Source: Lepiota brunneoincarnata (Eukaryota; Basidiomycota; Agaricomycetes; Agaricales; Agaricaceae). From it: a stretch of 64,000 nt of DNA. Under the pieces are notes generated by a model. The model did no database searches. It saw only the letters and a list, made by a program, of their open reading frames with translations, and was not told the DNA's origin. The stretch lies in contig JAEBUN010000025.1 of assembly GCA_023014365.1 (NCBI GenBank), positions 620,001 to 684,000 on the forward strand, written 5' to 3'. Positions 20,049-39,544 of this stretch are shown one piece after another. A program made the position numbers and the translations under genes. Within the stretch, counting starts at the first letter, position 1, and each line of letters opens with the position of its first letter.

Positions 20049-21348
20049 TGAAAAGGTGGAAACGTTCGTGGGGTTAAATATAGATAAATGGCTTGTTCTC
20101 ACTAAGCTTAGTCGAAATTCGATAAGCTTAAGTTAATACAAGTAGTATGAGATAGATAATGAACAGTTTCGTCTTTTAGGGTGTTCTGGGGGTGCGTTCT
20201 GACAGCAAAATTCAAGAGAATAGTGTTTTTAGAGGTTAACAAACAGCTGTTGAAGTTATCTTAGCCGTACGGTGCAACAGTGAAAGGACAATCCCTGTCA
20301 ATTCAAAGTGCGGGGTCTCTAGTCTCTGGTCTCTGGTCTCTGAACTCTGTTCTCTGTCTCTGTCTCTGTCTCTAGCACTCTGGAACTCTAAACTCTGTTC
20401 TCTGTTCTCTGTCTCTGTCTCTGGGTTGGTTGACGACTGAAGAAATCACACTTAACGATGCACACTAAGTAGTCCTCTGAAACCGTTCTTAATCACGGCT
20501 CACAGACTTGCGTGTGGAAGCGGGGGTGAGACCTCTTCCTTCTCCATGAACAAGTGCGACCATATTTATATTGTTTAGATACATGCAAGAGATAGTAAAT
20601 ATGAAATAGAAAACAATAAGCTTAATTGTTACAGGTACTGCAGAATATTTTGGAAGGTTCGGCAGCATTTCTACCTGGCCCTGGGTTATGGGTTTTTCTC
20701 TGATTGACGAATGGCAATCCAGCCCGACGTGTTCTGTGCTCGTCTGCATTATTCTGCGTCCATGTGAGCACGTTAAGCCTTTGGATCAATTATGATCAGA
20801 ATGTATGGCATATGTACAATCCCTTGATCCGTTGTAATTAATCTCAGTCAGGCAGTATGCCGAGGTGCCGGGACCCACAAAGCACTTGTTAATTATGAGT
20901 CTTTGATATGTCTAGGGTTTTGGGCATCGGGTGTCGCCTCCTGAACATTGGACATTCTGTTCCGTGGTCCAGTCATTATTATTGGGCTCGCTATGGGCAT
21001 AATACCCCTGCAACAGCCACTATGTACATTCTTTAGGTTCCAACGAATCCAAGTTCATCAGAAAACTGCTCGTAAGGTCCCTGGATGTGACCGGAGTATA
21101 CTCGATAGGCTATGTAGAGTCTGGAATCCCTTAGGAGAGCGTTCTGATAGCTTGGTTCACTAAGCTTAGTGATAATGAGCTGGTTTGAACACTTCCGAGG
21201 CTCGAATATCCTCAGTTTGGTCGAACTGGCTACTACAGGACATAGTACCAATCCTCTATAGGGTTCTTTAATGATATAGCCAATGATTCTATGTAGAGAA
21301 TCGTTCCGGAGTACGGAATTCATGTATAGGTGTGAAATCGGCGTATCA
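20049..21348 (-). repeat. LTR copy B (3' LTR of the minus-strand Ty3 element)
   Basis: A 1300-bp block, printed as TGAAAAGG...GTATCA on the plus strand, so TG...CA ends. On its right (the internal side for a minus-strand element) lies the purine tract AGGGGGAGA (minus strand), as expected of a 3' LTR. The left flank is CCGG and the right TCTC, so it is not a clean solo LTR. It has four TAAGCTTA sites and a CTCTGT-type simple repeat near 20320-20425. Confidence 0.9.
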
Positions 21349-21359
21349 TCTCCCCCTAA
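21349..21359 (-). promoter_or_regulatory. polypurine tract of the minus-strand Ty3 element
   Basis: The minus strand reads TTAGGGGGAGA directly before the LTR start TGATAC. This is the standard position of the primer for plus-strand DNA synthesis. The same TAGGGGGAG core recurs on the same strand at 32330-32339 and 33434-33443. Confidence 0.85.
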
Positions 21360-22813
21360 CCAATTGCTGACTGTCCTCAGTCATTATCTCCTTCAAATTT
21401 GCAGTATCTGAGTCTCTCTGATACGCTCTATGTTCTAGAATGTTCACCAGCTTCGAGAGTAGCATACTTTCGCTAAGCTTATTCCAAAATGATGTCATGT
21501 CACCGAGTTTAAATGTATAGATCAACTTCTTGTTGCTATAGCCTAAATTTTTATCTCGTTATTGGGTCTTTTAAAAGTCCCAAGGTCTCGTTTCCTCTCT
21601 TTCGTTCTCCCTCTCACTTCTTACTCGTCTATTTTCATCTCAACTTCCAGTCTTCTACACCTGCCCACAGCAACAATGGACAGAAACATGCGCAGCAACA
21701 AGAGAGCTCGTCATGATGAAGATTCAGATTCTTCCTCTAGTAAGCAATGTTCATTTTACTGTTGTCCTTGTCTTGCTAACACTGTCTTCAGACTATACTG
21801 AGCCAAGGAGCGCCCTTATGGCTCCAGGAAACATGTCTTCTCCTTCAATCATGCAATGTAAGTCGTGTTTTTCCCCCATTCTCGTTGTCATCACTCATGT
21901 TTTTTCTCTGCTTTTAGGTCTCACTATTCGCCTACCAGTGCGTCACAACCTCCTGCCTCAATGGGAACCACCAGCACCACATACTAGGAGGACTAGAGGA
22001 GGGTGAGGAGCTTGAGGAGCTTGTGGAAATCGTCAGGTGGGTGTGGCAAGGACCCCTCCTCCACCATACTCTCCGCCCTGCGAAACCAACTCCTCTGCCG
22101 GCCTCTCCCTTGGCCACTCCAGTGCCAAGATGCATGATTTCCATCACGTCGTTGTGCAATCCAACTGACGAGCGCTCTGCTGGATTTTCCGCAGAACCCT
22201 CATCAGGTATCCCTATTGGCAGGCCCTCTGGTGGATTATCCACAGAGGCTTCGTCCAGTTCAATGTCGCTGCCCCCTCTCACCATCTCTCTGCGCACCCT
22301 GGACAAGGAAGACTTGCTGGTGCTCCCTCCCCTGGGTATTGCATCAGGTTCGGAGGTGCCAGGCCCTTCAACAAACCAGCCTTCTTCCCCCATACTCTCT
22401 TCTGCTACTTCAATGCGTAAGCTTAGTCGTTTTCATGATATATTTGTTCTTTCCGCTGACTTCTGCTTTAGCGCATATACCAGCTGCCTTTAAAGGCAAA
22501 CAGAGGGCAAAATCATTGACGCCACCCCCTCTCCCCTTATTCCTGGCAGGTTCTAACTCGTCATTGTGTTCTCCAGTCCCTGAGGTCTCTCAAGCTGACC
22601 TCTTTAAAATCTTTAGCTAGTCCTCTTCTCTGGATGGGCAACATGTGCTGGCTTTGCCTAGGTGCCCAACACCATCACCACCTCACTTAGCTGGTGCTCC
22701 AGTCGAGTCTCCTGCAAGCGCCGTGGAGATTTCACCCTCTCCAGACCTGGAACTTCTCCTGGAGCCATCTCCCGTTCCACAGGAGCCGGCATTTGTTTTT
22801 CAGGACTCACTTC

Positions 22814-23512
22814 TGTTATGAACAGCCCAGACCAGGGAGGAACAAGAATTACTGTTCGACTTTACAAGATGGGTACAGGAGACTACAGACCAATTACGGG
22901 CACAAGAATACGAAGACGAGGAAGGGGAATATTACACCGCCATGCAGGACCTGGCGAGAGAAGCAGGAATGGAGATAACCTTGGAGGATATATTGGAATA
23001 CCCCGAAGACGAGGAAGATAACCATGGATCAACCGACCCAACCTCCGATGCGGATGGAAGCACCGAGAGAATGGAGAGCGAGAACGAAGAAGACTCCATG
23101 GAGATACAATCGGGAGAAGGAGATTATGAGTCAGAGGAAAGCGATGGAACATCGCACAGCAGTAGCGAGAGTACTGACTCATTGTAATATAAATAACGCT
23201 AGGATGCCATCAGCCAGGATGTGCATCATGGTCAGGACTGCGCACGACCAGTAGAACAGCCAAGTAACCTATAACGAGTATATAGCACCTCATAGGTATA
23301 TAAGGCCTGTACAAGTAGAGATTAAAGCCTCAAGCTTTAATCTTGTTAACAGCGGTCGTTTACCTCTCTGCCTTAACTTGGCGTCTTCCCTCGTTATCTC
23401 ATTGAGCGCGATCCACTAAGCTCTATAAGGCCAACCGTCTCGGACACCTTGTAGAGTGATTGAAGGCCGTCTCCAGTTATCCTCGGATACAGAAGGAGCA
23501 CGGATCATAACA
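22814..23512 (+). repeat. 5' LTR of the chromovirus
   Basis: 699 bp with TGTTATGA/TCATAACA inverted ends. It carries a TATA box near 23297 and the region that pairs with the primer site. It also contains the same acidic coding sequence as the end of ORF3b, but one extra G near 22840 breaks that frame in this copy. Confidence 0.95.
23297..23343 (+). promoter_or_regulatory. TATA box and predicted RNA 5' end for self-priming
   Basis: TATATAAG (23297-23304) lies 35 nt before AAGCTTTAATCT (23332-23343). That 12-mer is the perfect complement of AGATTAAAGCTT at the primer site. A start at about +30 to +35 from TATA would put the 12-mer at the RNA 5' end, as in Tf1 self-priming. The 12-mer also pairs with GATTAAAGC just upstream of it in the DNA. 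The arrangement is kept in the 3' LTR and, around the 12-mer, in the decayed copy near 50265. Confidence 0.7.
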
Positions 23513-23514
23513 TT

Positions 23515-23526
23515 AGATTAAAGCTT
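23515..23526 (+). other. primer-binding site, self-complementary type
   Basis: AGATTAAAGCTT starts two bases after the 5' LTR. It has no TGG start as expected of a tRNA 3'-end site, and is fully complementary to the predicted start of the element's own RNA. Confidence 0.7.
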
Positions 23527-24439
23527 CCTTTGGACAACCTCCATCGTACACCCCGTGGTATCGGTACGCCTTGTCGCTACCCTTCCACACCGGCAGACGA
23601 TACGCTTTATCGCTATCCGAGTGCCAACCGTATCTGACGACACGCCTTGTCGCTGTCCGGTGATACACCCCCGTAGAGCAGGCCACCATACCCTCTGCAC
23701 CCTTGGTCAGACGCACCGAAAGCGTTGATAGGTCATCCACACCTTTAAGTGTTGATTGGGATAACGCACCCGTAAGCGTTGTATACAGGTCATCCGCACC
23801 TTCAAGCGTCGATTGGGATAACGCACCCGCAAGCGTTGTTTATTCACCCTCACCTTCACCTTCGACTTCTTCCCTCTTCACCCTGTCTACAAACCGAAAC
23901 GACCCCCTTGCCACCGACTACGAAGAATCCAACAGTTCTGACTGGTCGACAACCGACTCCGAACCCGACTTCACACCCCCTCCACCACGGACCCTAAAAA
24001 GAAAACAAAACCTATACCCCTCACTCGTTCACCCTCTGGTTCCGCACCGTACCCTACACAACCTACCGAGAGAGTTCAACGTCGAACAGAAGACCCAGGA
24101 TACCCAGCACCCCCAGCATCAGTTCTTCAATCCCTACCTAAACAACCACCACCTGAAAGAACTGCCACCTCTACCCGCTCAAAGCTCGGGGAGCCGATTC
24201 ATAGAACATCTACCCCATCCTCCGGTCCTCAACCCTCAACAAGTACAAGAACTAGCGACAACACTTCGCAACAGAAACCCCCAAGAACATTCTCACCCCT
24301 CACATCACCACTTGGATCACCGGTACACTCACCGCCTCGATCCAGTTCCCCTGTACAATCCGAACCATCCGAAGTTAGCCCCACTACCGGGTCTATTCAC
24401 ACTTCCGACGAGGAATCCACAACCTCTGACATTAACAAT

Positions 24440-25564
24440 ATGGCCTCCTCCGCAAAAATCAATACACCCCCAACCTTTAATGGAGAGACCGACTACTTCC
24501 GCCTCTGGAAGGATGCAGTACAACTATACATCGATGCAAAGCCAGGAGCCTTTTCCGATGACAAGACCAAGATACAATTCGCCCTTTCATACATGTCCAC
24601 CGGCCCCGCCGCAACATGGAGAGGAGCATTCTTGGAATCAAACAAAGAACTTGATGGAAGCCAGACCCTTCCGACATGGAAGAAATTTCTCGAAGGACTC
24701 GATACATCCTTCGCCCCAAACAATGTCCCCGCCGATGCAATGGACAGAATCCGCCACCTCAAACAGAATGGACGATATATCGATGATTACATATCCCAGT
24801 TCCAGATACTTGCCTATCAGGCCGACCTTGGAGATGGAGTGGCGGCGGTCAACTATTTCAAGAACGGGCTGGATCGCCCCGTCGCAATCAAGACAATTAG
24901 CCTCAATCCAGGAAACAAACTCAGCGACTGGTTCAAGCAAGCTCGAACAGCATATCAAATACTACAAACTCAACGCGACTATATGCAAACTCGAGGAACT
25001 CCCTCGTTTTCAACGACTTCGCGCACTCGCCCATTTAAAGGGAAAAGAAATGCTTTTACGCGCCGTGTCCCACTGCCCTATCAAGCAACAGACCCTAACG
25101 CAATGGATATTGACCAACTCGCCGAAGCAGTCTACAACCTCGACTTTGAGGACGAGCCAGATCTACTCGCCGAGGAAGCTGATGAAGACGAGGAGACCGA
25201 AGAAGACAGACTCCACCAGTTGGTACAAGAACGCACCCGCGAAGCCCTCAATGCAATCCTCACGGACGCCCAAAGAAAGGATCTCAAAGAAAAGAGATGC
25301 TTCAACTGCCGCAAGACTGGACACTTCGCCCGCGAATGCCCCATCAAGAAGACAATATATCGCCGATCCGAACTACCCCGCAATTTGGATGCCAGAAACC
25401 GGTCAAATGCGATATCCAGAAGAAGACAAGCAAGTTATAGGAAGAAGAATTCCCTATACAACATACTAGAAGATGCAACCGACGAAGAAGTCGAGGACAT
25501 CTACGAACATTTTGCAAATGAATCCAACCACCCAGATGCCCCTCTGGTTAAGGATTTTGCCTAA
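24440..25564 (+). CDS. gag: chromovirus Gag
   Basis: 374 residues from the ATG at 24440. The central part matches retrotransposon Gag (FNGETDYFRLWKDAVQLY, the W-R-G-FLE segment, and F-LGLD-like turns), then an acidic stretch, then a CCHC zinc knuckle CFNCRKTGHFAREC around residue 292. Gag forms the particle and binds RNA. The frame stays open about 500 nt upstream of the ATG with a Pro/Ser-rich sequence but no other ATG, so the start may lie further up if non-ATG starts or splicing are used. The stop TAA 25562-25564 overlaps the open pol frame, which is one base back, at GATTTTGCCTAAG. A -1 shift on UUU there would join Gag to Pol; this is inference. Confidence 0.85.
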   Translation: MASSAKINTPPTFNGETDYFRLWKDAVQLYIDAKPGAFSDDKTKIQFALSYMSTGPAATWRGAFLESNKELDGSQTLPTWKKFLEGLDTSFAPNNVPADAMDRIRHLKQNGRYIDDYISQFQILAYQADLGDGVAAVNYFKNGLDRPVAIKTISLNPGNKLSDWFKQARTAYQILQTQRDYMQTRGTPSFSTTSRTRPFKGKRNAFTRRVPLPYQATDPNAMDIDQLAEAVYNLDFEDEPDLLAEEADEDEETEEDRLHQLVQERTREALNAILTDAQRKDLKEKRCFNCRKTGHFARECPIKKTIYRRSELPRNLDARNRSNAISRRRQASYRKKNSLYNILEDATDEEVEDIYEHFANESNHPDAPLVKDFA

Positions 25565-28500
25565 GGAGACTAGCCACCACGTCTAGCCCTCCACAAAGAC
25601 CTCCTTCCCTTTCCTATTCACAAAATGATATTAATGTTGTAAAGTTACAGGAATCGTCAGCACGCGTAATACATCTACCCTGTCGAATCCGAAAACACAA
25701 GTTCACTAAGGAAGGACCCGAAAGCGTGGAACTACTCGCCCTACTCGACTCAGGAGCAGCAGGAAACTTCATTGACCCCGGAATGGTCAAACAACATTCA
25801 TTCAAAACAACACCCCTCGATCGACCCATCGAAGTACGAAATGCCGATGGATCTGTTAACGAAAATGGAACAGCCACCCACTACACGACCCTCAACCTAA
25901 TGGTTAACGGAAAGAATATGGAGATCAAACCAAAAGTAGTCTCCCTCGGAAGCCCAAGACTCATCCTTGGATTCCCTTGGCTTGCAGAACACAACCCAGA
26001 CATCGACTGGGACGCCAAACAACTACGCTGGAGAAACGAACGTTGGGACAACACTATATTCCGAGAACTCATCCAATCCATGGAACCCGATTGGATCTAC
26101 AACGACCAACTCAACCACATCTCCACACTAGAGCCCACAAGCTTCGAAGAAATCAACTTCAAAGCCTCCGCATCACAATTCCTCGCCGTACAACACGGAG
26201 AAAAGAAAAACGACGACCCAAGAAAAGTCGTACCCACGGAATTCCACGAATACCTCCCAGTATTTAGCAAGAAACAAGCCGAACGATTCCCCCCACAACG
26301 ACCATGGGATCACAAAATTGAACTCAAGGAATCATTCAAACCAATTGCCATGAAGTCCTACCGACTCTCCCTCAATGAAGAAAAGGAACTCGACACGTTC
26401 CTAGAAGAAAACCTTCAAAAGGGATACATTCGACCATCCGAATCGCCAATGGCATCACCTTTCTTCTTCGTAGGAAAGAAAGATGGAAAACTACGCCCCT
26501 GTCAAGACTACAGGTACCTCAACGAGCATACCGTCAAAAATGCATACAACCTCCCCCTCATCTCTCATATTCTCGACAAACTTCGAGGATCAAAATACTT
26601 TACCAAACTCGACGTACGAGCAGGATACAACAACATCCGCATACGCAAAGGAGATGAATGGAAAGGAGCCTTCAGGACACCCCGAGGATTATTCGAACCC
26701 ACGGTTATGTTCTTTGGAATGTGTAACTCCCCAGCAACATTCCAAACCATGATGGACTCATTATTCCGAAAACTCATCGACAATGGAGGAGTAATCGTTT
26801 ACATGGACGACATCCTCATTCACGCAAAAACAAAACAAGAACTTCGACGCCTCACAAGAGAAGTACTCAAGATACTCAAGAACAACGATCTATACCTCAA
26901 AACCGAGAAATGCGAATTCGAACGACAACGACTCGAATATCTAGGAGTTATTATCACTCCCGACTCAGTTTCGATGGACCCAGCAAAGCTCAAAGGCATC
27001 GCTGAATGGCCAACACCAACTACCCCGCGCGACGTACGAAAATTCATAGGATTTTGCAACTTCTATCGAAAATTCATACACCAATACGCCACATGGGCAA
27101 AACCTCTCAATGCCCTAATGTCCAAAACCAAGAAATTCGAATGGACAGAAGAATGCCAGAACGCCTTCGATACTCTCAAGAGAAAATTCCAAAGCGAACC
27201 AGTATTAATGGTCCCCGACCGAGACAAACCCTTCGAAATCGAATGCGACGCATCACTATTTGCATCAGGAGCAGTCCTACTTCAACGCGACAACAATGGA
27301 GTTAAACACCCAGTCGCATACTTCTCAAAAGGATTCTCACCAGCCGAACGCAACTATCATTGCTCCGAACAAGAACTCTTCGCCATTATCCGAGCACTCA
27401 AAGAATGGCGTCACCACATAGAAGGATCATCACACAGGACCATCGTATGGTCAGATCACGACAACCTTCGCCGCTGGAGAAAACCTGAAGACCTCAGCAG
27501 AAGACAAGCCCGATGGATTGCCTACATGCAACGATTCGACATCGAAATCCGACATATCCCTGGAAAGAAAAATGGACCAGCAGATGCCCTTTCCAGACGA
27601 CCCGATCATGAACCCAAGACAAGAGACAACAAACAGGTCGTTGCACTCCCTGACAAATTCTTCACCTCAGAACAGCCACAACATATCCATATTATCGACG
27701 AAAATACTAAACAGGAAATAAAAGAGCTGTGGAAGAAAAAGAAACAGACCGACATCGCCCAAGAAGATGACTCAGGACACCCACGTGTTCAAGGAAAACT
27801 ATTTATACCACAAGATTTACACCTCAGACGCCGCTTACTGCAAAGAGTACATGACTCACCCACCGCAGGACACCCTGGAATCGCAGAAACAACTAGGAAA
27901 CTCCAGGAATACGCCTACTGGCCCGGGATGCGATCATTTGTCAAAAACTACGTCAAAGGATGTGGTGCTTGCCAACAATACAAGATCAATCGCCACCCCC
28001 TAAAACCACCGCTTCAACCTATCCCTGGACCCCGTTCTACCCGTCCATTCTCGAACATCTCGATGGATCTTATCACAGACCTACCCCCGGACGGACCCCA
28101 TGATTCTATACTGGTCGTGGTCGACCAGCTTACGAAGGGGATAATTCTAGAACCTACTGCGAAAACCGCCAACGCGGACAAGATCGCCGAAATTCTTATC
28201 AAACGGCTATTCTCTAGATTTGGCCTTCCCGAGAAAGTTCTCAGTGATCGCGACCCCAGATTCGCTGCCAAATCCATGAAAGAATTCTACAAACAACTCG
28301 GAATCGAAACAAGCACTCTCTACCGCCTACCACCCCCAGACAGACGGACAAACAGAGCGATTCAATCAAGAAATAGAACTCTACCTTGGCATCTATTGCT
28401 CATCGAACCCGAACAAATGGGTAAAGGCACTCCCACTCCTGGAATATGTCCACAACTCGAAAACACACGCCGAACACCAACATACCCCATTTGAACTCCT

Positions 28501-29119
28501 CTATGGATCAAGCCCCAAAGGATTTCCGACCTCCGAGGAGCCAACGAACATTCCAGCAATAGGAGAGAAGTTTAAATACCTCGCCAAGATACGCCAAGAA
28601 GCCCAAGCTGCGCATGAACAAGCCAGACTAAAAATGGCTGCAAGATATAACCGGCCAGATATCAATCTAAAAGTTGGACAGAAGGTTTGGCTCGACAACC
28701 GCAACCTCCCAATTCAGTACGCCTCAAAGAAACTGGCCCAACGCCGAGAAGGTCCCTTCACCATAACAAGAAAACTCGGACCTGTTACCTATGAACTAAA
28801 ATTACCCATCAAATGGAAGATCCACAACAAGTTTCATGCGAGCCTCCTAATGCCTGCAGAAGAGAACGACACACATGGGGAATACAACACAGCCCCACCA
28901 CCCGACCTTGTAAATGGAGAAGAAGAATACGAGGTCGAGTCAATACTGCGCCACAGAAAATTCCGGAACAAGTATCAATTCCTAGTCAGATGGAAAGGAT
29001 ACCTTCCCACCGAGGATTCCTGGGAGCCAGAAGCGAACCTGGAGAACGCCAAGGAAGTCATTGAAGAATATAAAAGGGCTCACAAACTAGACAACCCCAC
29101 CAATGACCCAACCACCTAA
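25555..29119 (+). pseudogene. pol: chromovirus Pol: protease, RT, RNase H, integrase, chromodomain; one frameshift
   Basis: The open frame starts at 25555. Domains in order: aspartic protease (LLDSGAAGNF, near 25740), reverse transcriptase (KLDVRAGYNNIR, then YMDD near 26800), RNase H (IECDAS, then SEQELFAI, then SDH), integrase zinc finger (HPGI ... CGACQQ, 27860-27975), and the catalytic core with Asp near 28065 and Asp in SDRDP near 28245. Near 28315 one extra base shifts the frame; the other frame then runs unbroken through the catalytic Glu region (TDGQTERFNQE) to a chromodomain (YEVESILRHRKF ... YLVRWKGY-like, 28930-29075), stopping at 29119. Chromodomains steer integration to chromatin marks. 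Everything but the single insertion looks functional, so it is a very recent break or a sequencing error. Confidence 0.9.
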
Positions 29120-30317
29120 CACTCGAGCAACCACTCCAGACCTCCCAGAGCCAGACAACGATGGACGCCTTCTCATCCGGGAAAGAATCATATCCCTGGC
29201 GAACCGCGTCACAGGAAATAGCCAACCTAACCCTGCCACCGATACCGCTGACGACCAACCAGACAGGACCAACAGTCCTTATATCATCCGGCATACCTTC
29301 CTTCCCTCCAACCAACCCGAGATACGATCCATCCTTTTACACGAAGTTCCCTTTCATACTACCGGAACCCGTCTTAAACGCAGTCCAGCGATGGTACCCC
29401 TGGTCGACACCTGCTGGAAGACATTTACTGCTCTTCTGTATCACAAGCGCCTCGTCCACGACCGAGCAACAGAATTCGAAAAACTATGCGCCACTATTCT
29501 TTCTAGCGCAACAGAGGAACAGGACCGCGACACCATTTCTGCCATGTTATCAACCGCTCTCACCGAATTCCCGTTCGAGAGTCCGATCCCAAGCCCGAGC
29601 AATGGAAGCGGAAGTCAGGACCGCCCTATCCTACCTATCGGGACCACCACCCAACCTTCCAACCCTCCCATGGTGGATACGAGTAACCAACCATCAAGTG
29701 TTGTACAAGCTATATCTGCTTCTAATGACGCCCCCATCGGGACTACCACCACTCACTTATCCACCACCCGAACTCGCTGCAATTGCTGCCGTCGATTCGG
29801 CCATATCAAAGCAGGATGCCCGCGCTACCAATGTCGATATTGTCGAAAGATTGCCCCAGGCCATTACGAGAAGCACTGCGAGAGAAACCCTTACCAGCAT
29901 CAACCCGCAAGTATGGTACCTGGCCTGTATCGCCGCCCACGAGGAATACCAAGCAGAGCTCGATCCCTCACACGCGAAACCACAAACAACAATATTCGAC
30001 ACATTGTTGCAAGCACCGAGCAGCGCCCCGCTTCAGCCAGACCCCTCCGCACCCGAATTCAAAATGCCCCCGTCGTCATTCCGACCACCAACGCCACCAC
30101 CACATCTGCTAGTGGAAGCCACCGACTTCCTGAATCGATCTTTCGGCGCACCCGCCACCATTCACTCCAGAGAACCCATCGTCATCGACCTCACCCAAGA
30201 CCCGCCATCCCCAGACCACCAAGCTACCGAAGCGACTCCCCAGAACCCGACCCATACTTCGACTGGGACCCCATCGCCGAATCAAACATTACAGGAGAGC
30301 CTGTCGGATTATACTGA
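29103..30317 (+). CDS. chromovirus ORF3a: double zinc-knuckle protein, overlaps ORF3b
   Basis: 404 residues. The ATG overlaps the pol stop (29103 versus 29119). The middle carries CX2CX4HX4C (CNCCRRFGHIKAGC) followed closely by CX2CX6HX4C (CRYCRKIAPGHYEKHC), near residues 223-255. This is an RNA- or DNA-binding style of module, distinct from the Gag knuckle. The C-terminus is Pro/Arg-rich and then ends DWDPIAESN...GLY. The older copy at 48479 keeps the ATG, the first knuckle partly (His to Tyr nearby changes) and a similar C-terminal motif. Its role is unknown; position after integrase is where some elements carry an accessory or env-like gene, but no signal peptide or membrane segment is seen here. 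Confidence 0.65.
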   Translation: MTQPPNTRATTPDLPEPDNDGRLLIRERIISLANRVTGNSQPNPATDTADDQPDRTNSPYIIRHTFLPSNQPEIRSILLHEVPFHTTGTRLKRSPAMVPLVDTCWKTFTALLYHKRLVHDRATEFEKLCATILSSATEEQDRDTISAMLSTALTEFPFESPIPSPSNGSGSQDRPILPIGTTTQPSNPPMVDTSNQPSSVVQAISASNDAPIGTTTTHLSTTRTRCNCCRRFGHIKAGCPRYQCRYCRKIAPGHYEKHCERNPYQHQPASMVPGLYRRPRGIPSRARSLTRETTNNNIRHIVASTEQRPASARPLRTRIQNAPVVIPTTNATTTSASGSHRLPESIFRRTRHHSLQRTHRHRPHPRPAIPRPPSYRSDSPEPDPYFDWDPIAESNITGEPVGLY

Positions 30318-30732
30318 GGATATGTCTGATGAGGACATCAGACCTTATGAAGGGGATAATGTTATGAACAGCCCAGACCAGGAGGAACAAGAATTACTGT
30401 TCGACTTTACAAGATGGGTACAGGAGACTACAGACCAATTACGGGCACAAGAATACGAAGACGAGGAAGGGGAATATTACACCGCCATGCAGGACCTGGC
30501 GAGAGAAGCAGGAATGGAGATAACCTTGGAGGATATATTGGAATACCCCGAAGACGAGGAAGATAACCATGGATCAACCGACCCAACCTCCGATGCGGAT
30601 GGAAGCACCGAGAGAATGGAGAGCGAGAACGAAGAAGACTCCATGGAGATACAATCGGGAGAAGGAGATTATGAGTCAGAGGAAAGCGATGGAACATCGC
30701 ACAGCAGTAGCGAGAGTACTGACTCATTGTAA
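29161..30732 (+). CDS. chromovirus ORF3b: overlaps ORF3a in another frame and runs into the 3' LTR
   Basis: 523 residues from ATG 29161 in a different frame from ORF3a; 29161-30317 is open in both. The N-terminal three quarters is Pro/Thr/Ala-rich with a helical middle (WWIRVTNHQVLYKLYLLLMTPP, then repeated Ala/Glu stretches). The last 124 residues are encoded by the 3' LTR and are strongly acidic (FDFTRWVQETTDQL, then EDILEYPEDEEDN, then Asp/Glu/Ser runs). In the decayed copy the LTR-encoded part stays open (49698-50117) and differs near its end by a 9-bp, frame-keeping change, which hints at past selection on the protein. The function is unknown, and no domain was recognised. Confidence 0.6.
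   Translation: MDAFSSGKESYPWRTASQEIANLTLPPIPLTTNQTGPTVLISSGIPSFPPTNPRYDPSFYTKFPFILPEPVLNAVQRWYPWSTPAGRHLLLFCITSASSTTEQQNSKNYAPLFFLAQQRNRTATPFLPCYQPLSPNSRSRVRSQARAMEAEVRTALSYLSGPPPNLPTLPWWIRVTNHQVLYKLYLLLMTPPSGLPPLTYPPPELAAIAAVDSAISKQDARATNVDIVERLPQAITRSTARETLTSINPQVWYLACIAAHEEYQAELDPSHAKPQTTIFDTLLQAPSSAPLQPDPSAPEFKMPPSSFRPPTPPPHLLVEATDFLNRSFGAPATIHSREPIVIDLTQDPPSPDHQATEATPQNPTHTSTGTPSPNQTLQESLSDYTEDMSDEDIRPYEGDNVMNSPDQEEQELLFDFTRWVQETTDQLRAQEYEDEEGEYYTAMQDLAREAGMEITLEDILEYPEDEEDNHGSTDPTSDADGSTERMESENEEDSMEIQSGEGDYESEESDGTSHSSSESTDSL
30341..30359 (+). promoter_or_regulatory. polypurine tract of the chromovirus
   Basis: GAAGGGGATAA lies directly before the 3' LTR start TGTTATG at 30360, and within ORF3b. 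Confidence 0.75.
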
Positions 30733-31057
30733 TATAAATAACGCTAGGATGCCATCAGCCAGGATGTGCATCATGGTCAGGACTGCGCACGACCAGTAGA
30801 ACAGCCAAGTAACCTATAACGAGTATATAGCACCTCATAGGTATATAAGGCCTGTACAAGTAGAGATTAAAGCCTCAAGCTTTAATCTTGTTAACAGCGG
30901 TCGTTTACCTCTCTGCCTTAACTTGGCGTCTTCCCTCGTTATCTCATTGAGCGCGATCCACTAAGCTCTATAAGGCCAACCGTCTCGGACACCTTGTAGA
31001 GTGATTGAAGGCCGTCTCCAGTTATCCTCGGATACAGAAGGAGCACGGATCATAACA
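30360..31057 (+). repeat. 3' LTR of the chromovirus
   Basis: 698 bp, the same as the 5' LTR apart from one missing G. It encodes the acidic end of ORF3b (to 30732). It is followed by target duplication ACTTC at 31058-31062. Confidence 0.95.
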
Positions 31058-32623
31058 ACTTCTGGCCTCACCGTCTCCTGTCCCTTCTTGTTTGCCTAGC
31101 CTGGTGGTTCCGGAGATCCCTCAAGAGTCTCCTCATGCTGGCCCATCACATCAAAAACGTGTCCTTTCGTCCAAGAAGAGTTCCAACACGCGGACGAAGA
31201 AATACGTTCCCCAAGCTCGCTTTCAATGCTCTGAGGCTGCCATTATTCGGGACCATGGATACCGCCACCCAGTCCCGCTCTTTTGTGAGGACTTTCCTAG
31301 GCTGCTGGCAGCTAGCCAGCTTTCGGTACGTTTTCCAAGTTTTCTTGTGTTTCCTTACTGAAGGTTTTGACATCTACCCCAGTACGTGCCACCTCGGTCT
31401 TGGTGTCCTTCCTGCGCTGCTCGTAAGTTGGAGTGTGAGCCTCTGGGCAAGGGTAAGAAGTGTTGCAGCTGCGACCTCTATAATTACCCCTGCACCTTCG
31501 CAGACCATCCGCAAGTCTCGGCTGGCATTGCAAACGCCCTAGTCACATCTTCACTGACCAGTGAATACCATAAGTTTCTCTGTTCACTATTTTTCTCTTC
31601 TTATTCTCTTTATTTTCTAGATCTGGCCGCGTTTGCACGTGTTGTGTCCTCCAGCTTGGTCAGCCTGGAGGCGAACCGCGTCGCTTACGAGGCTTCAGCG
31701 TTTCACCACCGTCAGGTGGTTTATCAGTTCGTCCAGGAAATGCAAGCTACCCGGACGGCCCTGGAAGGTAACAACGTGGCATTCGTCAAGATGGGGATGG
31801 CCGACTCCATTGAAGACATCAAGGCGTTCTTTGAGTTTGCCAACAACTTTCCGGGAGTCCCAACATATGAAGAATTTGAGGAGCTCAAATCACTTCTCTT
31901 CCTCACTTTCCTGATAACTCAGGATCCAGAGTCTATCTTGGAGGACTTAAACTAGCCACTCCCCTTTTATACCTTTATCTCTTGAATGTAACATCCTATT
32001 TTGTCCTGTAGATACATTCACAACTAAAGATTCTTGTCTCTTGGTATCTTTCTGAGTGAAGCTTGATGCCCTTCTGAAGACCCTGAGCTAAGCTAAGGCT
32101 TCCAGCCGCTTATACACTCATCAGATATTTCTCTGATACTTCTGCGATGCCTATTGACACCTCAATGCGCCATGATCCGCAACGCGTAGTGATCCGCAAC
32201 GCGTAGCGACCCAGCTCATCCGCTCCGGTTTACTTACAAGCCTGAACCAGCCTGTCCACAATGTTCGAAAAAGCTCTTCATGAAAAAGCTTGCGTCAAAC
32301 TGTCAAACTGAAGTGCCCCTTGGGACCCATCTCCCCCTAGCCAAATTGAAATTGGTGCCCTCACCATTCCATCAGAATCCCTGTGCACACTGATAACCGC
32401 AAGACCCTGGCAACGTGTTACCTAATAAGGCAACTGTGGTTCAGCAAGTCTGTTGAAGGCTGGCTACTCAAGATTACAGGTTTCCTAGGCCTCTCAGGTC
32501 ATAAGCTTAGGGTGGAGGGTGCTCTTCATCCACTCGTTATGATTCATCATCACTGCCAACAGCCTTTTCTTATAAAAAGCGAGGGAGTGACATCTCATTC
32601 TAGCAGACACCCTTCGCAAGAAA

Positions 32624-34010
32624 ATGGCTTCTTCTATCCCCCATCTCCAGGTTGAGCTCAATGATCTCATCAGCAATGCCAAAGGTTGTCTTCAGCGCCT
32701 GCAAAACGGTCAAGTCGCTCGTCCCCTCGTCGAGAAGGCTCTCCTTGCGTTCGACGCTCCTGGGGTATGTCTATTCGTTCCATGCTTCTCTCGCCGTTTC
32801 TAAATCATTTCTAGTCTGCTTATATTGAAGCGTTATCGGAGGATAATGAGGCTATCAAGCTTCATGTCAACCAGGACTACGTCTTCCGTATCTGCAAGCT
32901 CTACGAAATTTACCAAAACAACTACCATTTGTCTTATGAGATGCCTGCTATCTATAAGGCGCTCTCTGAATGCTGTAGCCGCATTAATCGCGTTCGCTCT
33001 GAGGAATCCCACAAAACCAGAACCGAAGAGGCTCAGAACCCATCGTCCATGACTGGCTCTACTTCCTCCAATGTTGCCGAAGGCTCTGCTGTCCCCAAAC
33101 GCGTAAGCTTAGCGTTCTTTTGGCTCCAATCATCTTCTCATGTATAAGCTTAGCCTCACAAAGGTCGCAAGGCCCCTGTCTCTGCTGCTGTTGTGGTAGA
33201 CACTGATACCGAGCTTGCTGAGAGTATGACCAGTGCTTCCAACTCCCAAGCAACCGGTGCTGACATGGTAATATAGCTGCTTCTCAACCTATTACATTGG
33301 CTGAGATAATTGCTTGCCTTCAGGACATGATGGTTGATGAGGAGGTCTCTCAAGCTATCGTCGAAGAGGTTCGTGTAGTCTCGCCTTATCGCAAGCGTCG
33401 TTTGTCTACCTCTGACATGGTGCGCCAGCTCTACTCCCCCTAACCACTGATTCTGACTTCATCCTTTGCTAGGAGGCCGTCAAAAAGTCCTCCTCGTCTA
33501 AAGGCACCGTCCATCTTCTTCCCTATTGTCAAGTTCCCAATATGAACACTAAACACTGCTGTTATGCCCTGGGCTGAACAGATTCTAGCCAAAGCCAATG
33601 CCAATACTGCCAAGCATGCCCGTACCAAGTTTACTTCCGATGAGCGCACCTTTGCAGGCTTATCTGGTGGGCAATTTCTCACTTCTATTCGCTAAGCTTA
33701 ACGGTTCTGACACTTCTCCCAGGCAGCTCATTTACTCCAGGAACTCCAAAACCTTCTGTCTCACTCTCACGACGAGTATGAGTCCGAATCTCATGGTGAT
33801 GATGCTCGGTCAGTCAAATGTGACCTCAATTTGCTCAGCTGGGACTTCATCGATGCTATTCCCTCACTTGAAGCCAACTTAAAGAGGTTCCAATTCCTCA
33901 TTCAAGAGTGCATCCATCTCAAAACCCTTTTGCGCACCTCTCCGACTTGGACAAGTCCTCCCCTGCTTAAGCTTAACGCTTTTACAGTCCCCAGGATAGT
34001 TTTCCTTTGA
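32624..34010 (+). pseudogene. antisense cargo gene B (unknown family), several introns
   Basis: Starts at ATG 32624 (MASSIPHLQVELNDLISN...). Clear introns: about 32765-32814 (GTATGTC...TTTCTAG), 33103-33153 (GTAAGCTTAGCG...ATAAGCTTAG, palindrome copies at both splice sites), about 33269-33324, and about 33421-33472 (containing CCCCCTAAC as branch region). The exons between encode an alpha-helical, Leu/Glu-rich protein (YEIYQNNYHLSYEMPAIYKALSECC) with a Ser/Thr-rich linker and a basic segment (YRKRRLS). After 33540 the frame shifts at least once, then another helical exon runs 33724-34010 to TGA. It converges with the integrase reading frame of the host element, whose stop is at 34047-34049. 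No domain was recognised. It was probably functional before decay. Confidence 0.6.
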
Positions 34011-34860
34011 TAAGTAGATAGTTCTGTCCACAATATCAGGTTTTTTCTATCCCTCCAACTCTTCTGGCTCCCATCTGTCACTAGGCTCATCCTCAGTAGT
34101 CTCCTCCAGGGTCTTCAGTCCCTCTGGCAACAGATCTAACAACTCTTGTAACTCCAGCAGCAACGGCATATGTTTTCTGGCTAAGTAGGGAATTACTCTG
34201 AACGCCACCACTTTATTCTGCCATACAGAACCATCCAACTCTGCCAGGATATATGATCCTCCCTTTGATCTAGATATGACCACCATGGGTCCTAGATACC
34301 TGGGTTTCATCTTCCTGTCTGCTGAGCTCTCTATAGCTGTGTTTCTCACTAATACTAAATCTCCTGGGCTGAAGCGATAATCTTTTATCTTATGCGCTGC
34401 TTGTCGTTCCATCTCCCAAGCCTTGCTAAGCTTAGTGTCTGAAACATGCTGACGCACCTCCTCAACATGCTGAACATGTTTTGCCAAAGCCTGAGCTCGG
34501 TATCCTATCAACTCGGCCGTGGTTAAGTACTTATTCGGTAGTTGTACTAGCCAAGTGGCCTCTTTGACATCCAGAGGTAGCGTCAGGTGCGCTCCGGTTA
34601 CCAGAAAGTACGGGGAACACCCCATTCCTTTTCTAATGGTTATCCGATCTGCCCACATAACGTGCAGTAGGTGCCAATACCACTTTTTGACATCTCCATC
34701 TGTAGCTTTGTACAACATTTGCCGCACATCCCAGTGGGCTCTCTCAATAATCCCGTTTGCTTTGGAATTGTAAGGAGATATCATTACTCCTTTTATCCCA
34801 TATTTTTCTTCCAGCCATCGAACAGCTTTCTTAAATGGAGAACCGTTGTCCGTGACAATC

Positions 34861-34911
34861 TGAAAGAATACAAGTAATACGTTAGCCTCAGATACTCGTA
34901 TGCACGAGAAC
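34861..34911 (-). repeat. spliced LTR-end fragment beyond the 3' LTR
   Basis: The fragment equals the last part of the LTR (minus strand) with exactly 53 nt missing between GAGGCT and AACGTA. The missing segment in both full LTRs starts GTAAGT, has CTTAC 17 nt before its end, and ends TAG. This is a standard small fungal intron. A further 17 nt (34912-34928) joins it to the 3' LTR. It looks like an extra reverse-transcribed strong-stop piece made from spliced RNA. Confidence 0.85.
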
Positions 34912-34928
34912 TAATAATATTTGTTACC

Positions 34929-35258
34929 TGAAAGAATATGAGTAATACGTTCTACACAGGCATTTGTAAGTATTAAAGGAATATATGAATGGTAGACCAC
35001 TTACAGCCTCAGATACTCATATGCGCGAGAACTGAGGCTGACGGTTCACAGCTACTGTATTTAAGGTAAAAAGAGACAATAAAGAAAAGTAGATAATAGT
35101 CTGGGCAGTGCATTGGCTACCGATCATGTGGGGGAAGAGGAATGGTAATGGGAGTAAAGGACCCATGCCTACGTGGATGAAACGGAACGCTGTGTGTCCA
35201 AGCGATCAATGCTTGGACCGCCGGTTGTTGTCCTCATAGAGCGTTCGGGATTCCAACA
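34929..35258 (-). repeat. 3' LTR of the copia element
   Basis: 330 bp with TG...CA ends, containing the 53-nt intron unspliced. Confidence 0.95.
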
Positions 35259-35265
35259 CTCCCCC

Positions 35266-38200
35266 TCAAACGGCGGAGAGGCCTAGCTCATTAGCGAAGT
35301 GTTTGACCTTGAGGGAGGGGAGCGCCTTCGTGAAAATATCGGCAACCATGTCTTCCGTTGGGCAATAAATAAGCTGAGTCTTGCCTTCTTCAATAACCCA
35401 ACGAATGAAGTGATAGCATATATCAATGTGTTTGGTGCGGGCATGGTACTGGTGATCTTTGGCGAGAGCAATGGCTGATTGATTGTCGGACAGTAGGGTT
35501 GTGGTAGGGAGTGAGGAATTGAATATCTGAGAGATGAGTGAGTGCAACCACAAAGCTTCCTTAGTGGCATGCATCACACCCACATATTCAGCCTCCGTAG
35601 TCAAGAGAGCAACTATTTCTTGACGCTTTGCACTCCAGGAGACGGCTCCACCATTGATGAGGAATGCGTAGCCAGAGGTTGCATGACGGTCCTCAGCCAT
35701 ATTCCCATCAGTGTCGGTGTATCCTGTAAGGTTCTCCCCGACTCCGCCATAAATTAGCCAGAGATTGCATGTACCTTTTAGATAACAAAAAACATGCTTT
35801 ACCGCTTCCCAATGAACTTCTCCCGGATTTTTGGAGAATTTCAATAGTACTTGCACAGCGTAGGCAATATCTGGCCACGTTCCGAGGGCTGCATACATGA
35901 GCGTTCCCACAGCCTCTTGGTAGGGGACCCTGGCCATACGAGTGATGTCGATAGTAGAGGTTGGTGATTGGTTGGATGTGAGTCGTAAGGAGGGATCCAT
36001 AGGAGTACTGATGGGTTTGAGTTCTTCAAATCCAAAACGTCACAGAGAGGAGTCAATATACGAGCACTGAGACAACATGAGTTTACCATGCTCATGATCC
36101 CTCTTCAGTTCAATACCTAGCAACCAGTGGATCTCTCCTAGATCCGTAATCTCCACAAAATCAGAAACTCGCTCCTTAATCCACCTGATGACCTTTCCTA
36201 AGTCCGCTATGAGTGTACAGTCATCAACGTGTACAAGAATGATGATGAGGTTAGGAGTGGTCTTGAAAAATACACTATGGTCCACCTCGCAGCATTGAAA
36301 ACCCATGTTGTCAACTAAGATTTCACAAAGTCGTTGATACCAGTGACGGCCTGACTGTTTGAGCCCATATAACATCTTCTTCAGCAGGCAAACATGATTG
36401 GGGTGAGCAGGATTGGTGAAACCAGGTGGCTGACGCATATAAACGGTCTCCGTAAGATTGCTGTTCAAATATGCACCCTTAATATCAATCTGGTGTATTT
36501 CCATGTTGCGTGCTGCAGCTATGGCAAGGACGGTTCGGATTGAGGCCAATTTTGCAACAGGTGCAAATGTGTCAAAGTAGTCGACCCCTGGGACTTGTGA
36601 GAAGCCCTGTGCAACCAGGCGGGCCTTGTAGTGGACGACATTGCCTGAGGCATCTCGTTTGGCTTTGTATACCCACTTGGATCCAACAACATTGACTCCA
36701 CTCAGCAGATCAACAAGTTCCCACGTTCCCGACTTCTTCAACATTGCCAGCTCTTCTTCCATCGCTGTCTTCCATAGGCTCCAGTCCCCTCTGCCCTTTG
36801 CTTCTTTGAAACTCCCTGGCTCCAGACCCTCAGCCTCTTCCATTTCCACCGCAAAAGCATACACGTCTTCCCATTCAACTTCCTCTGCCAAAGTGACCGC
36901 TTTACCTTCAAGCACATCTTGGGCTTTTCTGCTCGGGTTCCGGACACGTTGCGATCGGCCAGAAAAGGCACCTACTACAGATGGTTCATCATCATTGGCA
37001 GTGTCCTTCACCTGAGGGACAGCAGGCGGATCAATTGTCGCAGTCGATAAAGGGATAGGGGGGGTAGCCACAGCAGTGGTGGGCGCCTCATTAGTGGGCA
37101 CCTCGTTAGTAGCAGGTTGACCGGTCAGTGATACTGCACCTGGAATCTCGCTCGCTGGTTGCCCCTCCCCCTTGAGATTTCCATTCCCTTCACTAACGAA
37201 ACAGGAGTTTCATTCAACCCTTATAGCTCCTGTATCTGGATGCCAGATCCTAGAGCCGTTGCTCTCAGCGTCGTACCTGACCCAGCGGCCCTTTCTTGTG
37301 CGGCATCCCAACTTGTCCCCTTTTTCCTGGTGTACCCACACCTCAGCACCCCACTCCCGCATGTTTCCCAGGTCTGGTTTTTGTCTATACAACACTTCAA
37401 AGGGAGTCATTCCTTTTACGGCCTTTGTGCCGGTCCTGTTCATCAACCAAATGACATGTGATACTGCCTCTGCCCACAGGTACTTCGGGAGTCGACTGGC
37501 ATGAAACAATGCCTGAACACGTTCAAGGATGGTACAATTTTGGCGCTCAGCCACACTATTATGTTGGGGTGTGTCATGAACGGTGAGTTTAGCCTGAGTT
37601 CCCCTGGACTTCAGATATTGCTGGAACTCACTACTTGTATACTCGCCACCCCTATCAGAATGCAGGACCTTAATGCGTGTGCTGTGCTGCGTCTCACACC
37701 AAGCCTCAAAGGCTTTATACGCTCCAAAGACTTCATCCTTTGTCGCCAAAAATTCAACGCATGTCCATCGTGAATAGTCGTCTGTAAAGGTAACGTAGTA
37801 GCATCTCCCTTTTCTGGTGTTGAACTGTGCTGGTCCCCATACATCGGTGTGGACCTCCTTTCCAACGTTGGCTGCTCGCTCTCCCCCTCGGACCTTTGCC
37901 ACCGGAAGTTTTGTAGCTTTGGCAAATGCACATGAGTCGCAAAACATGTCTGTTGAGCCATCCGCATCCAAACTCAAGCCAGTGACTAAGCCATCCTGCA
38001 CAAGCTTGCAAGCTGCGGTCCCAGAAATATGCCCAAGGTGACGGTGTATCATATCTAGGGTGAGTGGTTCGCCAACCACATTTACTTCATCACCATCCCT
38101 GACCAGCTTGTATAGCCCCTTCTCGTTCTTGGGAATTTCTGCCACTCGAGCACCTTCAGGATTACGGACAATGCATTTTCCATTTCCAAATGTCACAGTG

Positions 38201-39525
38201 AAATCAGCATTGTCTAGATGGCCAACTGAGACAAGTGTGTATCCAGCTGCTGGTGAATAAAGGACTTCACTGAGTTGTAGTTGCGAGGCAGAGATACCGT
38301 TCAGAACATTTAGAATGACTTCGCCCTTTCCAACAGCGCTGAAACATTGTTTATTTGCAGCTTGTAGCAGTCGTGGTGGGATGGCTTGGAAAGTGCTGAA
38401 CATATCGCGATAGGGGGATATGTGCCTTGAGGATCCAGAGTCAATGACTTCGACTCTTGTTGTGGTACGATCTTCGGTAACCTTCCCAACTTCGATTTCC
38501 TCATCCTTCTGTGTCACCAATAGGGCTTCATCAACATCTAAGTCGTCTTCCACTGCCATTATCTCCACAACATCATCCTCAGCATCCAAGACAATGAACG
38601 ACTCATCATCATCCACATCCTCAACAACATTTGCTCCACTAGCTTTTGGCTTTGGATGTGCCTGGACAGTCTTGTCCCCTTCAGCCTTTCCCACATTTGG
38701 GCATTCCCATTTCCAGTGCCCAATTTCGCCACATTTGTGGCATTTCCCTGGCTTCTTCCCCTTTTTTCCCCCATTCTCAACTCCCAGAGCATCATCACCG
38801 CCATCAGCCTTAGAGCCACCGTGCACTCTAGCTGCGTGGGAACGCTCCCACTCATCACTTATCATCGTGATCAAGACGTCAGGCTTGATTGTGTAATTGA
38901 GGTTTGCATGGAGACGTGCAGCTGATAGTTGGGCCAATGCATATGAAGATAACCACCTAGGTAAGGATTGTATTACTGTGCTGCGATAGTCGTCATTGCT
39001 GATCTTCACACCGACAGAAGTCAGCTCAGCGCATTTTGAACGAAGTTCTCCTAGGAAGACCCTGACATCCCCCCTTTCTGGGCAATGTGCTGTCATGAAT
39101 TCACAACACATCCGTGCCTGTGAGAAGGCACCCTTGTAAGTATATTCCTTTTCGATAGCATTCCACATTTCCTTTACGCTCTCCAGGTCCGCGATGACGA
39201 TCAACATCGAGTCGGGGATGCGTTGCATGATTAAGGAACGAGCGATGGACTCATCTCGCTCCCAGCTGTGGACGTCATCAATGCTTGGTATGTGGGGAGG
39301 GGCATCCTTCATAGGTCCCTCACCGTCTTTTCCCTTTTCGCTAGCCGGTCTTGCTGTAAATATTCCTTGTGTGAAGACTGGATGCTTCACACTTCCGTCG
39401 AAGTGTCCCCATAACCCTTTTCCTTGGACAGCTGCCCTGAAGCACAGCCTGAAGATCGCCCAATTCGATCCCGACAAGTCCAGCTTTGGTACAGAGGAGG
39501 GTAATATGTCATTTACGTTTGCCAT
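35266..39525 (-). pseudogene. copia Gag-Pol polyprotein with two in-frame TGA codons
   Basis: One reading frame starts at ATG 39525 (Kozak ACCATGG; another in-frame ATG at 39540 lies inside the primer site). In order: Gag; CCHC knuckle CHKCGEIGHWKWEC (near 38720); protease VIDSGSSRH (near 38445); integrase with H-H ... CDSC finger (near 38050-37930), HTDVWGP and HSDRGGEY (catalytic Asp residues) and NSVAERQN (catalytic Glu); reverse transcriptase with the copia-type VHVDDC; RNase H (GYTDTDGN, then TEAEYV, then SDNQSAI) to the stop at 35266. The order protease-integrase-RT-RNase H defines Ty1/copia. Stops at 37210-37212 and 36040-36042 are both TGA in the same frame; the first follows IRVE, the second follows DSSL and precedes RFGFE, so both fit Arg CGA to TGA. 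Otherwise it is continuous. Confidence 0.92.
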
Positions 39526-39529
39526 GGTA

Positions 39530-39544
39530 GCGGGGCCCATAACC
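39530..39544 (-). other. copia primer site, initiator-tRNA half type
   Basis: The minus strand reads GGTTATGGGCCCCGC directly after the 5' LTR. This is the complement of the anticodon stem-loop of initiator Met tRNA (GCGGGGCUCAUAACC) with one mismatch. Priming by an initiator tRNA cleaved in the anticodon loop is known for copia and Ty5. Confidence 0.75.

Follow-up and report, generated by a model that had tools for sequence, protein, structure and literature searches.

Two selected antisense genes and an array of one palindrome in a Ty3 retrotransposon family of Lepiota brunneoincarnata: possible parts of a self-recognition system

Why would a retrotransposon carry two intron-bearing genes on the strand opposite to gag-pol, and why would a single 8-bp palindrome recur along its whole length? 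These questions are raised by a Ty3-type long terminal repeat (LTR) element of the basidiomycete Lepiota brunneoincarnata. It lies in a 64,000-nucleotide stretch (GenBank assembly GCA_023014365.1, contig JAEBUN010000025.1, positions 620,001 to 684,000 of the forward strand), which is called the window here and numbered from its first letter. We propose, with a probability of about 0.5, that the element's family is capable of self-recognition: its two antisense intron-bearing accessory genes would be working genes, and the array of the palindrome TAAGCTTA would mark the family's own DNA.

Two antisense genes in a Ty3 family

An earlier note, made from the window's letters, had placed two spliced-type genes antisense between the integrase and the 3' LTR of the element. 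We confirmed this arrangement: the polypurine tract (PPT) lies at 21349-21358, the integrase ends at 34047, and both genes lie between these features in 10/10 copies of subfamily B. The note had also put the region, without a nested element, at about 5 kb; the region stands, and its size has to be reduced to about 4.4 kb once the nested Ty3-type element is removed. The exons of the two genes in the window copy are as follows.

21676..21739, plus strand: gene 1 exon 1, ATG at 21676 (sequence and model from copy comparison)
21792..21857, plus strand: gene 1 exon 2 (sequence and model from copy comparison)
21918..22416, plus strand: gene 1 exon 3, its frame off by one base in the window copy
22472..22813, plus strand: gene 1 exon 4, first part, cut off by the nested Ty3-type element
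31058..31325, plus strand: gene 1 exon 4, rest, starting with the duplicated ACTTC
31383..31569, plus strand: gene 1 exon 5, with a six-cysteine cluster (cysteines 31404-31493); its donor is AT in the window copy
31621..31955, plus strand: gene 1 exon 6, stop codon at 31953-31955
32624..33970, plus strand: gene 2, in six exons, whose frame is interrupted in the window copy

To determine how widely the pair occurs, we searched the source genome assembly (55.6 Mb, 95 contigs). By these comparisons the window element is a member of a high-copy Ty3 family; a 1452-bp probe adjoining the LTR gave 42 matches from the 40 scored of 160 candidates. Ten subfamily B copies, chosen non-randomly through their gene 1 match, were examined over about 16 kb each. 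LTR, gene 1, gene 2 and integrase followed in identical order in 10/10 of them, with just 224 bp of one LTR in B7 and the second LTR of B10 outside the stretch taken. To avoid the bias of selection through gene 1, we used a probe from integrase only, which gave 171 candidates, 40 of them scored. A gene 2 match lay on the opposite strand within 4.5 kb at no fewer than 39/40 places, and a gene 1 exon match within 6.5 kb at no fewer than 35/40. Both counts are lower bounds, as the places were compared with 75 of 150 gene 2 matches and with 52 of the gene 1 matches listed. Thus, conserved open reading frames (ORFs) antisense to gag-pol, between pol and the 3' LTR, occur in most copies, an arrangement known as aORF-3R. 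The earlier note would have been refuted by other copies that lack the genes, and the copies examined carry them.

In copy B1, gene 1 encodes 584 amino acids (aa) in 6 exons, separated by 5 introns of 52-57 nt. Gene 2 encodes 358 aa in the copies with an unbroken frame, and has 6 exons and 5 introns of 50-60 nt. All ten introns begin with GT, end with AG and are constant in length in 10/10 B copies, in agreement with the note's GT-AG introns. Its branch sites held up by half: YTRAY branch-like sites were found in 5/10 introns of copy B1. Some donors of gene 2 are weak (GTGCGC and GTGGGC). The older subfamily A copies retain the introns, with several donors mutated to AT. Because the copies retain all ten GT-AG introns, the introns are evidently carried along through retrotransposition. 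To this extent the note was right that they pass through intact; the reason it gave, that the element's genomic RNA holds these introns in the wrong orientation for splicing, presumably explains their persistence. Gene 1 is intact in 6/10 B copies and gene 2 in 8/10. Both genes are dead in the window copy: the nested insertion splits gene 1, in which a frame difference and loss of the intron 5 donor were also seen, and gene 2 shows frame differences.

We then compared the ratio of non-synonymous to synonymous substitution rates (dN/dS) at two levels. Between subfamilies it was 0.14-0.33 overall for gene 1 and 0.13-0.45 for gene 2. Specifically, gene 1 gave 0.26-0.33 for A versus B (12 pairs: 4 A x 3 B copies) and, against B1, 0.24 for L042, 0.18 for L043 and 0.14 for L044. 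Gene 2 exons 1-5 gave 0.45, 0.36 and 0.13 for the same three copies; against B1, gene 2 gave 0.34 for one A copy and 0.32 for the window. Among copies, gene 1 gave 0.46-1.35 within B (15 pairs, from 6 of the 8 remaining B copies) and 0.32-0.51 within the older A (6 pairs). The fixed A/B changes in gene 1 were 48 non-synonymous to 72 synonymous (4 A, 8 B copies), compared with 159 private changes (151 non-synonymous, 8 stop) to 104 synonymous (Fisher p 0.00025). The gene 1 comparison omitted B3, B5 and L004 (frame differences), L003 (6-base length difference) and L008 (truncated), and alignment A1 omitted L042 and the A copies. For gene 2, exon 6 was omitted, where the frame of B1 differs, and subfamily A is represented by L037 alone: 5/7 stretches matched B1 partly or aligned badly, and L033 and L039 gave no match. 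Since dN/dS is low between subfamilies and higher among copies within B, propagating lineages keep both proteins while dead copies decay. The antisense genes are almost certainly real and selected.

This result bears on two further readings of the pair. The antisense transcripts might act as RNA, pairing with the genomic RNA and tuning it via double-stranded RNA silencing with coding secondary, as suggested for plant elements in the part of PMC7264820 that treats them; the codon-level selection on both proteins makes this very improbable. Alternatively, the genes might be captured host genes, passengers without function. A solitary relative of gene 1 favours such capture. It lies at two loci 97-99% alike (L040 2283-3840 and L041 2318-3875, perhaps alleles), is 59-66% identical in exons 4-6, which are open, and lacks the 5' part. 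We found no pol, LTR or TAAGCTTA in 9.9 kb at each locus. The relative is flanked by diverged duplicates of another stretch, and a nearby ORF looks histidine-kinase-like by eye. It may have been domesticated, or left stranded. The occurrence of the genes at host loci without the element, which the note had named as grounds for refutation, was therefore seen narrowly, at one near-identical pair of loci with a relative of gene 1. Against functionless passengers stand the purifying selection on both genes between subfamilies, their family-wide presence, and homologous genes in a second Ty3 family, so that we give this reading very little credence.

The second family, represented by L045 and L046, gave 14 matches from 13 candidates; its pol is 64% identical over the stretch compared. 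Its gene 2 relative is 35% identical over 69 residues, and its gene 1 relative 23% (tblastn E 0.012), with introns, by eye, at the same two places flanking the zinc exon. Neither copy is complete, each having been interrupted or truncated, and a nested insertion in L045 has an ORF judged mariner-like by eye. Since this family has homologues of both genes, the antisense pair is probably older than the family of the window element. Beyond these elements, no homologue of gene 1 (scored by residues 340-584 only) or gene 2 was found at E 0.001 in about 5.8 billion proteins (3307 and 6721 candidates). This may reflect divergence or missing annotation, because the same database has Agaricus pol relatives at 66-67% identity, the named ones being from Agaricus bisporus var. 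burnettii. Gene 2 matched no credible Pfam family (best E 0.062), and the element's pol had no match in viral contigs.

The remaining parts of the window element are listed below.

20049..21348, minus strand: LTR (3' in the gag-pol sense), reading TGAAAAGG...TATCA on the plus strand (BLAST to copies)
21349..21358, minus strand: PPT adjoining the 3' LTR, TCTCCCCCTA on the plus strand (sequence; same position in 10/10 B copies)
22814..31057, plus strand: nested Ty3-type element (sequence, 300-bp direct repeat, Pfam), outside the finding
32330..32348, unstranded: internal PPT-like copy between gene 1 and gene 2 (sequence)
34047..34784, minus strand: C-terminal end of integrase (alignment to the end of the L013 pol ORF)
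about 34862..39873, minus strand: nested Ty1/copia-type element within integrase, edges approximate, outside the finding
40018..43370, minus strand: broken pol with integrase H2C2, RNase H and protease stretches (Pfam)
43892..45829, minus strand: gag-region ORF, without Pfam family
45966..47265, minus strand: LTR (5' in the gag-pol sense; comparison with copies)

On the sense strand of copy L013, PF13975 (protease), PF17917 (RNase H) and PF17921 (integrase) follow in this order with integrase last, and pieces of them are present in the window; RVT_1 itself gave no match in the Pfam search of L013 and the window pieces. The minus-strand ORF 34047-34784 has no Pfam match of its own and can be aligned to the last part of the pol ORF (1206 aa) in L013. 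The TG...CA ends of the LTRs, the PPT and short target duplications are also those of Ty3 (gypsy) elements. The duplications are 4 bp long at two solo LTRs of the family in the window (2513-3810, ACAT; 54648-55947, GCGC), each of which holds four TAAGCTTA palindromes. The two LTRs of the window element mismatch at 63/1300 positions, 54 of these being transitions. Its flanks (20039-20048 and 47266-47275) are unmatched, CCGG versus GCAA, and because they differ, its two LTRs may be the product of recombination between copies. The right flanks of B copies start with NCGN in 8/8 (CCGG, CCGC, ACGC, CCGT; L014-L030, L002-L042 and the window), and the left flanks of older copies have CG, TG or CA at the same place, which fits CpG decay; integration appears to be CpG-centred. 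The nested Ty3-type element has reverse transcriptase, RNase H and integrase domains (Pfam) and a 5-bp duplication, ACTTC, at 22809-22813 and 31058-31062, and interrupts gene 1 exon 4. The internal PPT-like copy, 19 bp long and differing at one position from the PPT flank in copy B1, would fit an insertion of the gene 1 block between an older PPT and the LTR. The sequence GACTGTCCTCAGTC beside the PPT (window 21369-21382) is common to L045, and thus to both Ty3 families.

An array of one palindrome

We counted 26 occurrences of the palindrome TAAGCTTA in the window element (13,973 bp), while every other 8-bp palindrome occurs at most twice. With one LTR counted, there are 22 occurrences in 12,673 bp versus 0.21 expected, and no 8-bp palindrome exceeded 4 in 60 Markov simulations. 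Chance was thus rejected as the origin of the array. Since just 7 one-mismatch variants were found, the word is close to all-or-none.

26 of the 35 sites in the window lie in the element, 8 in the two solo LTRs of the family and 1 elsewhere, and neither nested element nor any other part of the window has a comparable word. Genome-wide, TAAGCTTA occurs 5370 times versus 419 for TTAGCTAA, which has the same letters. A neighbour within 2 kb was found for 94 of the first 100 TAAGCTTA places versus 2/30 TTAGCTAA places on contig C1. These counts show that TAAGCTTA is almost confined to the family of the window element in the DNA examined. Within the element, the sites are distributed as follows.

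20103, 20123, 20617 and 21161 (span 20103..21168): four sites in the 3' LTR
21474..21481: one site about 200 bp upstream of the gene 1 ATG
22418..22425: one site at the donor end of gene 1 intron 3
32502..32509: one site about 120 bp upstream of the gene 2 ATG
33104, 33145 and 33693: three sites in gene 2 introns
33968 (to 33975): one site spanning the gene 2 stop codon
34427, 40194, 40359, 40552, 40605, 42354, 42730, 42851, 44008, 44080 and 45530 (span 34427..45537): eleven sites in the gag-pol region
46020, 46040, 46534 and 47078 (span 46020..47085): four sites in the 5' LTR

We next compared the sites between copies. The window and B4 have 26/27 sites in common. With CpG columns excluded, 1/216 motif columns had changed, compared with 28/552 adjacent columns and 569/11,391 elsewhere (about 5%). 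In six A copies, 29/30 B4 sites were kept in the aligned stretches. Three other diverged copies gave the same picture: of the B4 sites, L042 kept 9/11 (changed columns 2/94 in the motif versus 594/4900 elsewhere, 12.1%, p 0.0006), L043 kept 9/10 (2/88 versus 390/4159, 9.4%, p 0.009) and L044 kept 16/17 (3/152 versus 536/7266, 7.4%, p 0.004).

The sites within pol allowed us to separate DNA from protein constraint. The pol ORF of L013 has 7 sites, which contain 6/9 of its CTT codons and 6/11 of its Lys-Leu pairs. At 4/7 of these sites, the motif leucine displaces the residue that most relatives have (Glu/Asp in 52, Lys in 49, Gln in 48 and Arg in 43 of the 60 compared, out of 120 listed). Since motif leucines override conserved residues, amino-acid constraint on pol was rejected as the cause of the motif. 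TAAGCTTA is thus selected as DNA and not as protein, and it is very probably a selected protein-binding site. Sites that are dispersed, exact, symmetric, family-specific and kept at the DNA level point to a sequence-specific binder that finds all copies of the element. In the comparison of the window with B4, 447/1572 CpG columns had changed versus 569/11,391 other columns, and such CpG decay would be the trace expected of methylated, silenced copies.

The spread of the sites across the whole element, coding DNA included, also agrees with a role of TAAGCTTA in the replication cycle (integrase or Gag binding, packaging, priming, or nuclear import of the cDNA) instead of transcription. However, an exact palindrome suits a symmetric DNA binder, and the related second Ty3 family seems to do without the word; we consider a replication role improbable. 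In the antisense genes of B4, the introns (546 bp) hold 4 sites and the exons (2833 bp) no complete one, with a further site spanning the gene 2 stop codon. This avoidance of exons but not introns does not tell a replication role from one in transcription.

Two other features of the window were recorded outside the element. Minus-strand ORFs at 10928-13925 with TPR repeats and a CHAT domain are a candidate host signalling or immunity-type gene. An imperfect inverted repeat lies at 18394-19027, with 279-nt arms that are 74% complementary and 76 nt between them.

The six-cysteine protein and the possible binders

Zn2Cys6 clusters of the GAL4 type follow the spacing C-x2-C-x6-C-x5-12-C-x2-C-x6-8-C. 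The cluster in gene 1 reads C-x2-C-x6-C-x8-C-x2-C-x6-C, which bears out the GAL4-spaced cluster of the earlier note. The six cysteines are invariant in 6/6 sequences, including those from the second Ty3 family and the solitary locus. Four of these, from the family of the window element and the solitary locus, satisfy the spacing rule, while the two from the second family have x7 in the first loop and fall outside it. The Pfam family Zn_clus matched 4/6 members with E values no higher than 1, the best being 0.016, and 5/6 weak matches of the gene 1 profile to solved structures were to HAP1 (two), CYP1, PPR1 and GAL4 (E 2.4-8.2).

We propose that the six-cysteine protein of gene 1, with or without the gene 2 protein, would bind TAAGCTTA wherever it is present. 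Binding would switch on the element, either by making silenced, CpG-methylated copies accessible, in the manner of the Arabidopsis protein VANC on VANDAL elements, or by activating promoters, or by both. The site about 200 bp upstream of the gene 1 ATG, the one about 120 bp upstream of the gene 2 ATG and the four per LTR could provide feedback on both transcription units. We rank self-recognition first because the element encodes a selected six-cysteine protein, its copies show CpG decay and the VANC model fits. For its parts our confidence differs. We lean slightly towards an element-encoded protein as the binder of TAAGCTTA. The fuller proposal, in which the zinc-cluster protein binds the palindrome and so lets the element locate its methylated copies in trans and lift their silencing, is tentative and somewhat short of even odds; if true, and as far as our literature searches show, retrotransposons and fungi would have a counterpart of VANC/VANDAL that was not described before and evolved independently. 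Still more tentatively, the effect might be chiefly anti-silencing instead of plain activation.

Several observations weigh against self-recognition. Gene 1 scores under the cut-off of Zn_clus (PF00172; 13.5 versus 21 bits, E 0.079). The family zf-ChsH2 outscores it, yet also stays below its own cut-off (21.3 versus 23.2, E 0.00023, 2/6 members); for the whole gene 1 protein the E values are 0.0024 for zf-ChsH2 and 0.38 for Zn_clus. The top solved-structure match of the gene 1 profile is ribosomal S5 (E 1.3) and not a zinc cluster, and an AlphaFold model of the window ORF 31386-31955 (exons 5-6) was uninformative (pLDDT 39). GAL4-type clusters are known for CGG-type half sites, and TAAGCTTA has none. 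The within-B pairs differ by few changes (11 to 44). Furthermore, we found neither TAAGCTTA nor a sharp word of its own in the second family (about 8 kb of L045, 1.9 kb of L046), which means that the genes are not always accompanied by such an array.

The binder could also be a host protein. An activator, insulator or nuclear-positioning factor of the host might use TAAGCTTA, with the antisense genes acting otherwise, for example in capsid or cDNA transport; Su(Hw) on the Drosophila gypsy element reportedly offers a precedent. The weak zinc-cluster match of gene 1 is in line with this, and so is the second family, whose two genes without an array in the DNA examined show that genes and array are separable. 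On the other hand, 1/35 sites in the window lies outside family sequences, and no host regulon is apparent within the window. We regard a host binder as unlikely, though a reading to be taken seriously. As for the retroelement-borne regulatory module suggested by the earlier note, the genes do belong to the element, being family-wide, selected and with their introns kept; the conserved palindrome array in the same element makes a regulatory role for them likelier than first thought.

Comparison with known systems

The brtn gene of Boty is said to go back to Zhao et al. 2011. Boty, or BcGypsy1, of Botrytis cinerea has this gene in antisense (PMC8365987, PMC7264820) and resembles the Lepiota element as a fungal Ty3-type LTR element with an antisense gene between pol and the 3' LTR, according to the part of PMC7264820 that describes it. 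It differs in coming from an ascomycete and having one gene named, in a comparison made by description and not by sequence. Antisense ORFs between pol and the 3' LTR are usual in plant Retand elements, and some are predicted to be DNA-binding (PMC7264820, PMC11963269, in the sections on these ORFs). The earlier note could match no fungal element to this one; brtn is a fungal precedent. The Retand, Grande and RIRE2 elements of the aORF-3R type share the antisense ORF with the Lepiota family, and for the TRP28 proteins of Retand, DNA binding is predicted and a regulatory role proposed (same sections of PMC7264820 and PMC11963269). TRP28 is, however, not a six-cysteine cluster, and introns go unmentioned in the main text of PMC11963269. 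About half of the Retand elements described carry tandem repeats in that region, and a dispersed single palindrome goes unmentioned in those same sections (PMC11963269, PMC7264820).

The nearest likeness in operation is VANC of VANDAL21 in Arabidopsis. The target of VANC is a 9-bp motif, enriched in the family that encodes the protein, introns included, and binding goes with loss of methylation, as described in portions of PMC5735166; this sequence-specific anti-silencing is also treated in PMC10398659. TAAGCTTA is likewise a short motif enriched in one transposable element family, also in introns, and rare in other elements. In contrast, the binder is known to be element-encoded in VANDAL21 and putative in the Lepiota family. 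VANDAL is also not an LTR element, and its motifs are chiefly non-coding and have grown as tandem repeats, whereas the TAAGCTTA sites are single, palindromic and dispersed in differing contexts, also inside pol. The comparison means that the two may work alike; no homology is claimed.

HBZ of the retrovirus HTLV-1 is a bZIP protein whose gene is spliced and begins in the 3' LTR. It resembles gene 1 as an antisense gene for a nuclear regulator in a retroelement, and is named as a case of an antisense gene in a passage of PMC11963269.

Our searches of the open-licence literature found nothing relevant on TAAGCTTA, nor on any fungal LTR element with an antisense gene for a zinc-cluster protein; papers that share the letters of TAAGCTTA were judged coincidental by their titles. 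As far as these searches show, a selected pair of intron-bearing antisense genes in a fungal element and the selected palindrome array are both new. The function of antisense accessory genes in LTR elements is called unknown in the sections of PMC7264820 and PMC11963269 that discuss it. The Lepiota family offers an answer that is concrete and can be tested: a protein that is a candidate DNA binder, and one defined 8-bp target under selection as DNA. If a protein of the element binds TAAGCTTA, retrotransposons would have independently evolved a self-targeted anti-silencing like that of VANDAL, in a fungus where CpG decay is seen in the element's copies.

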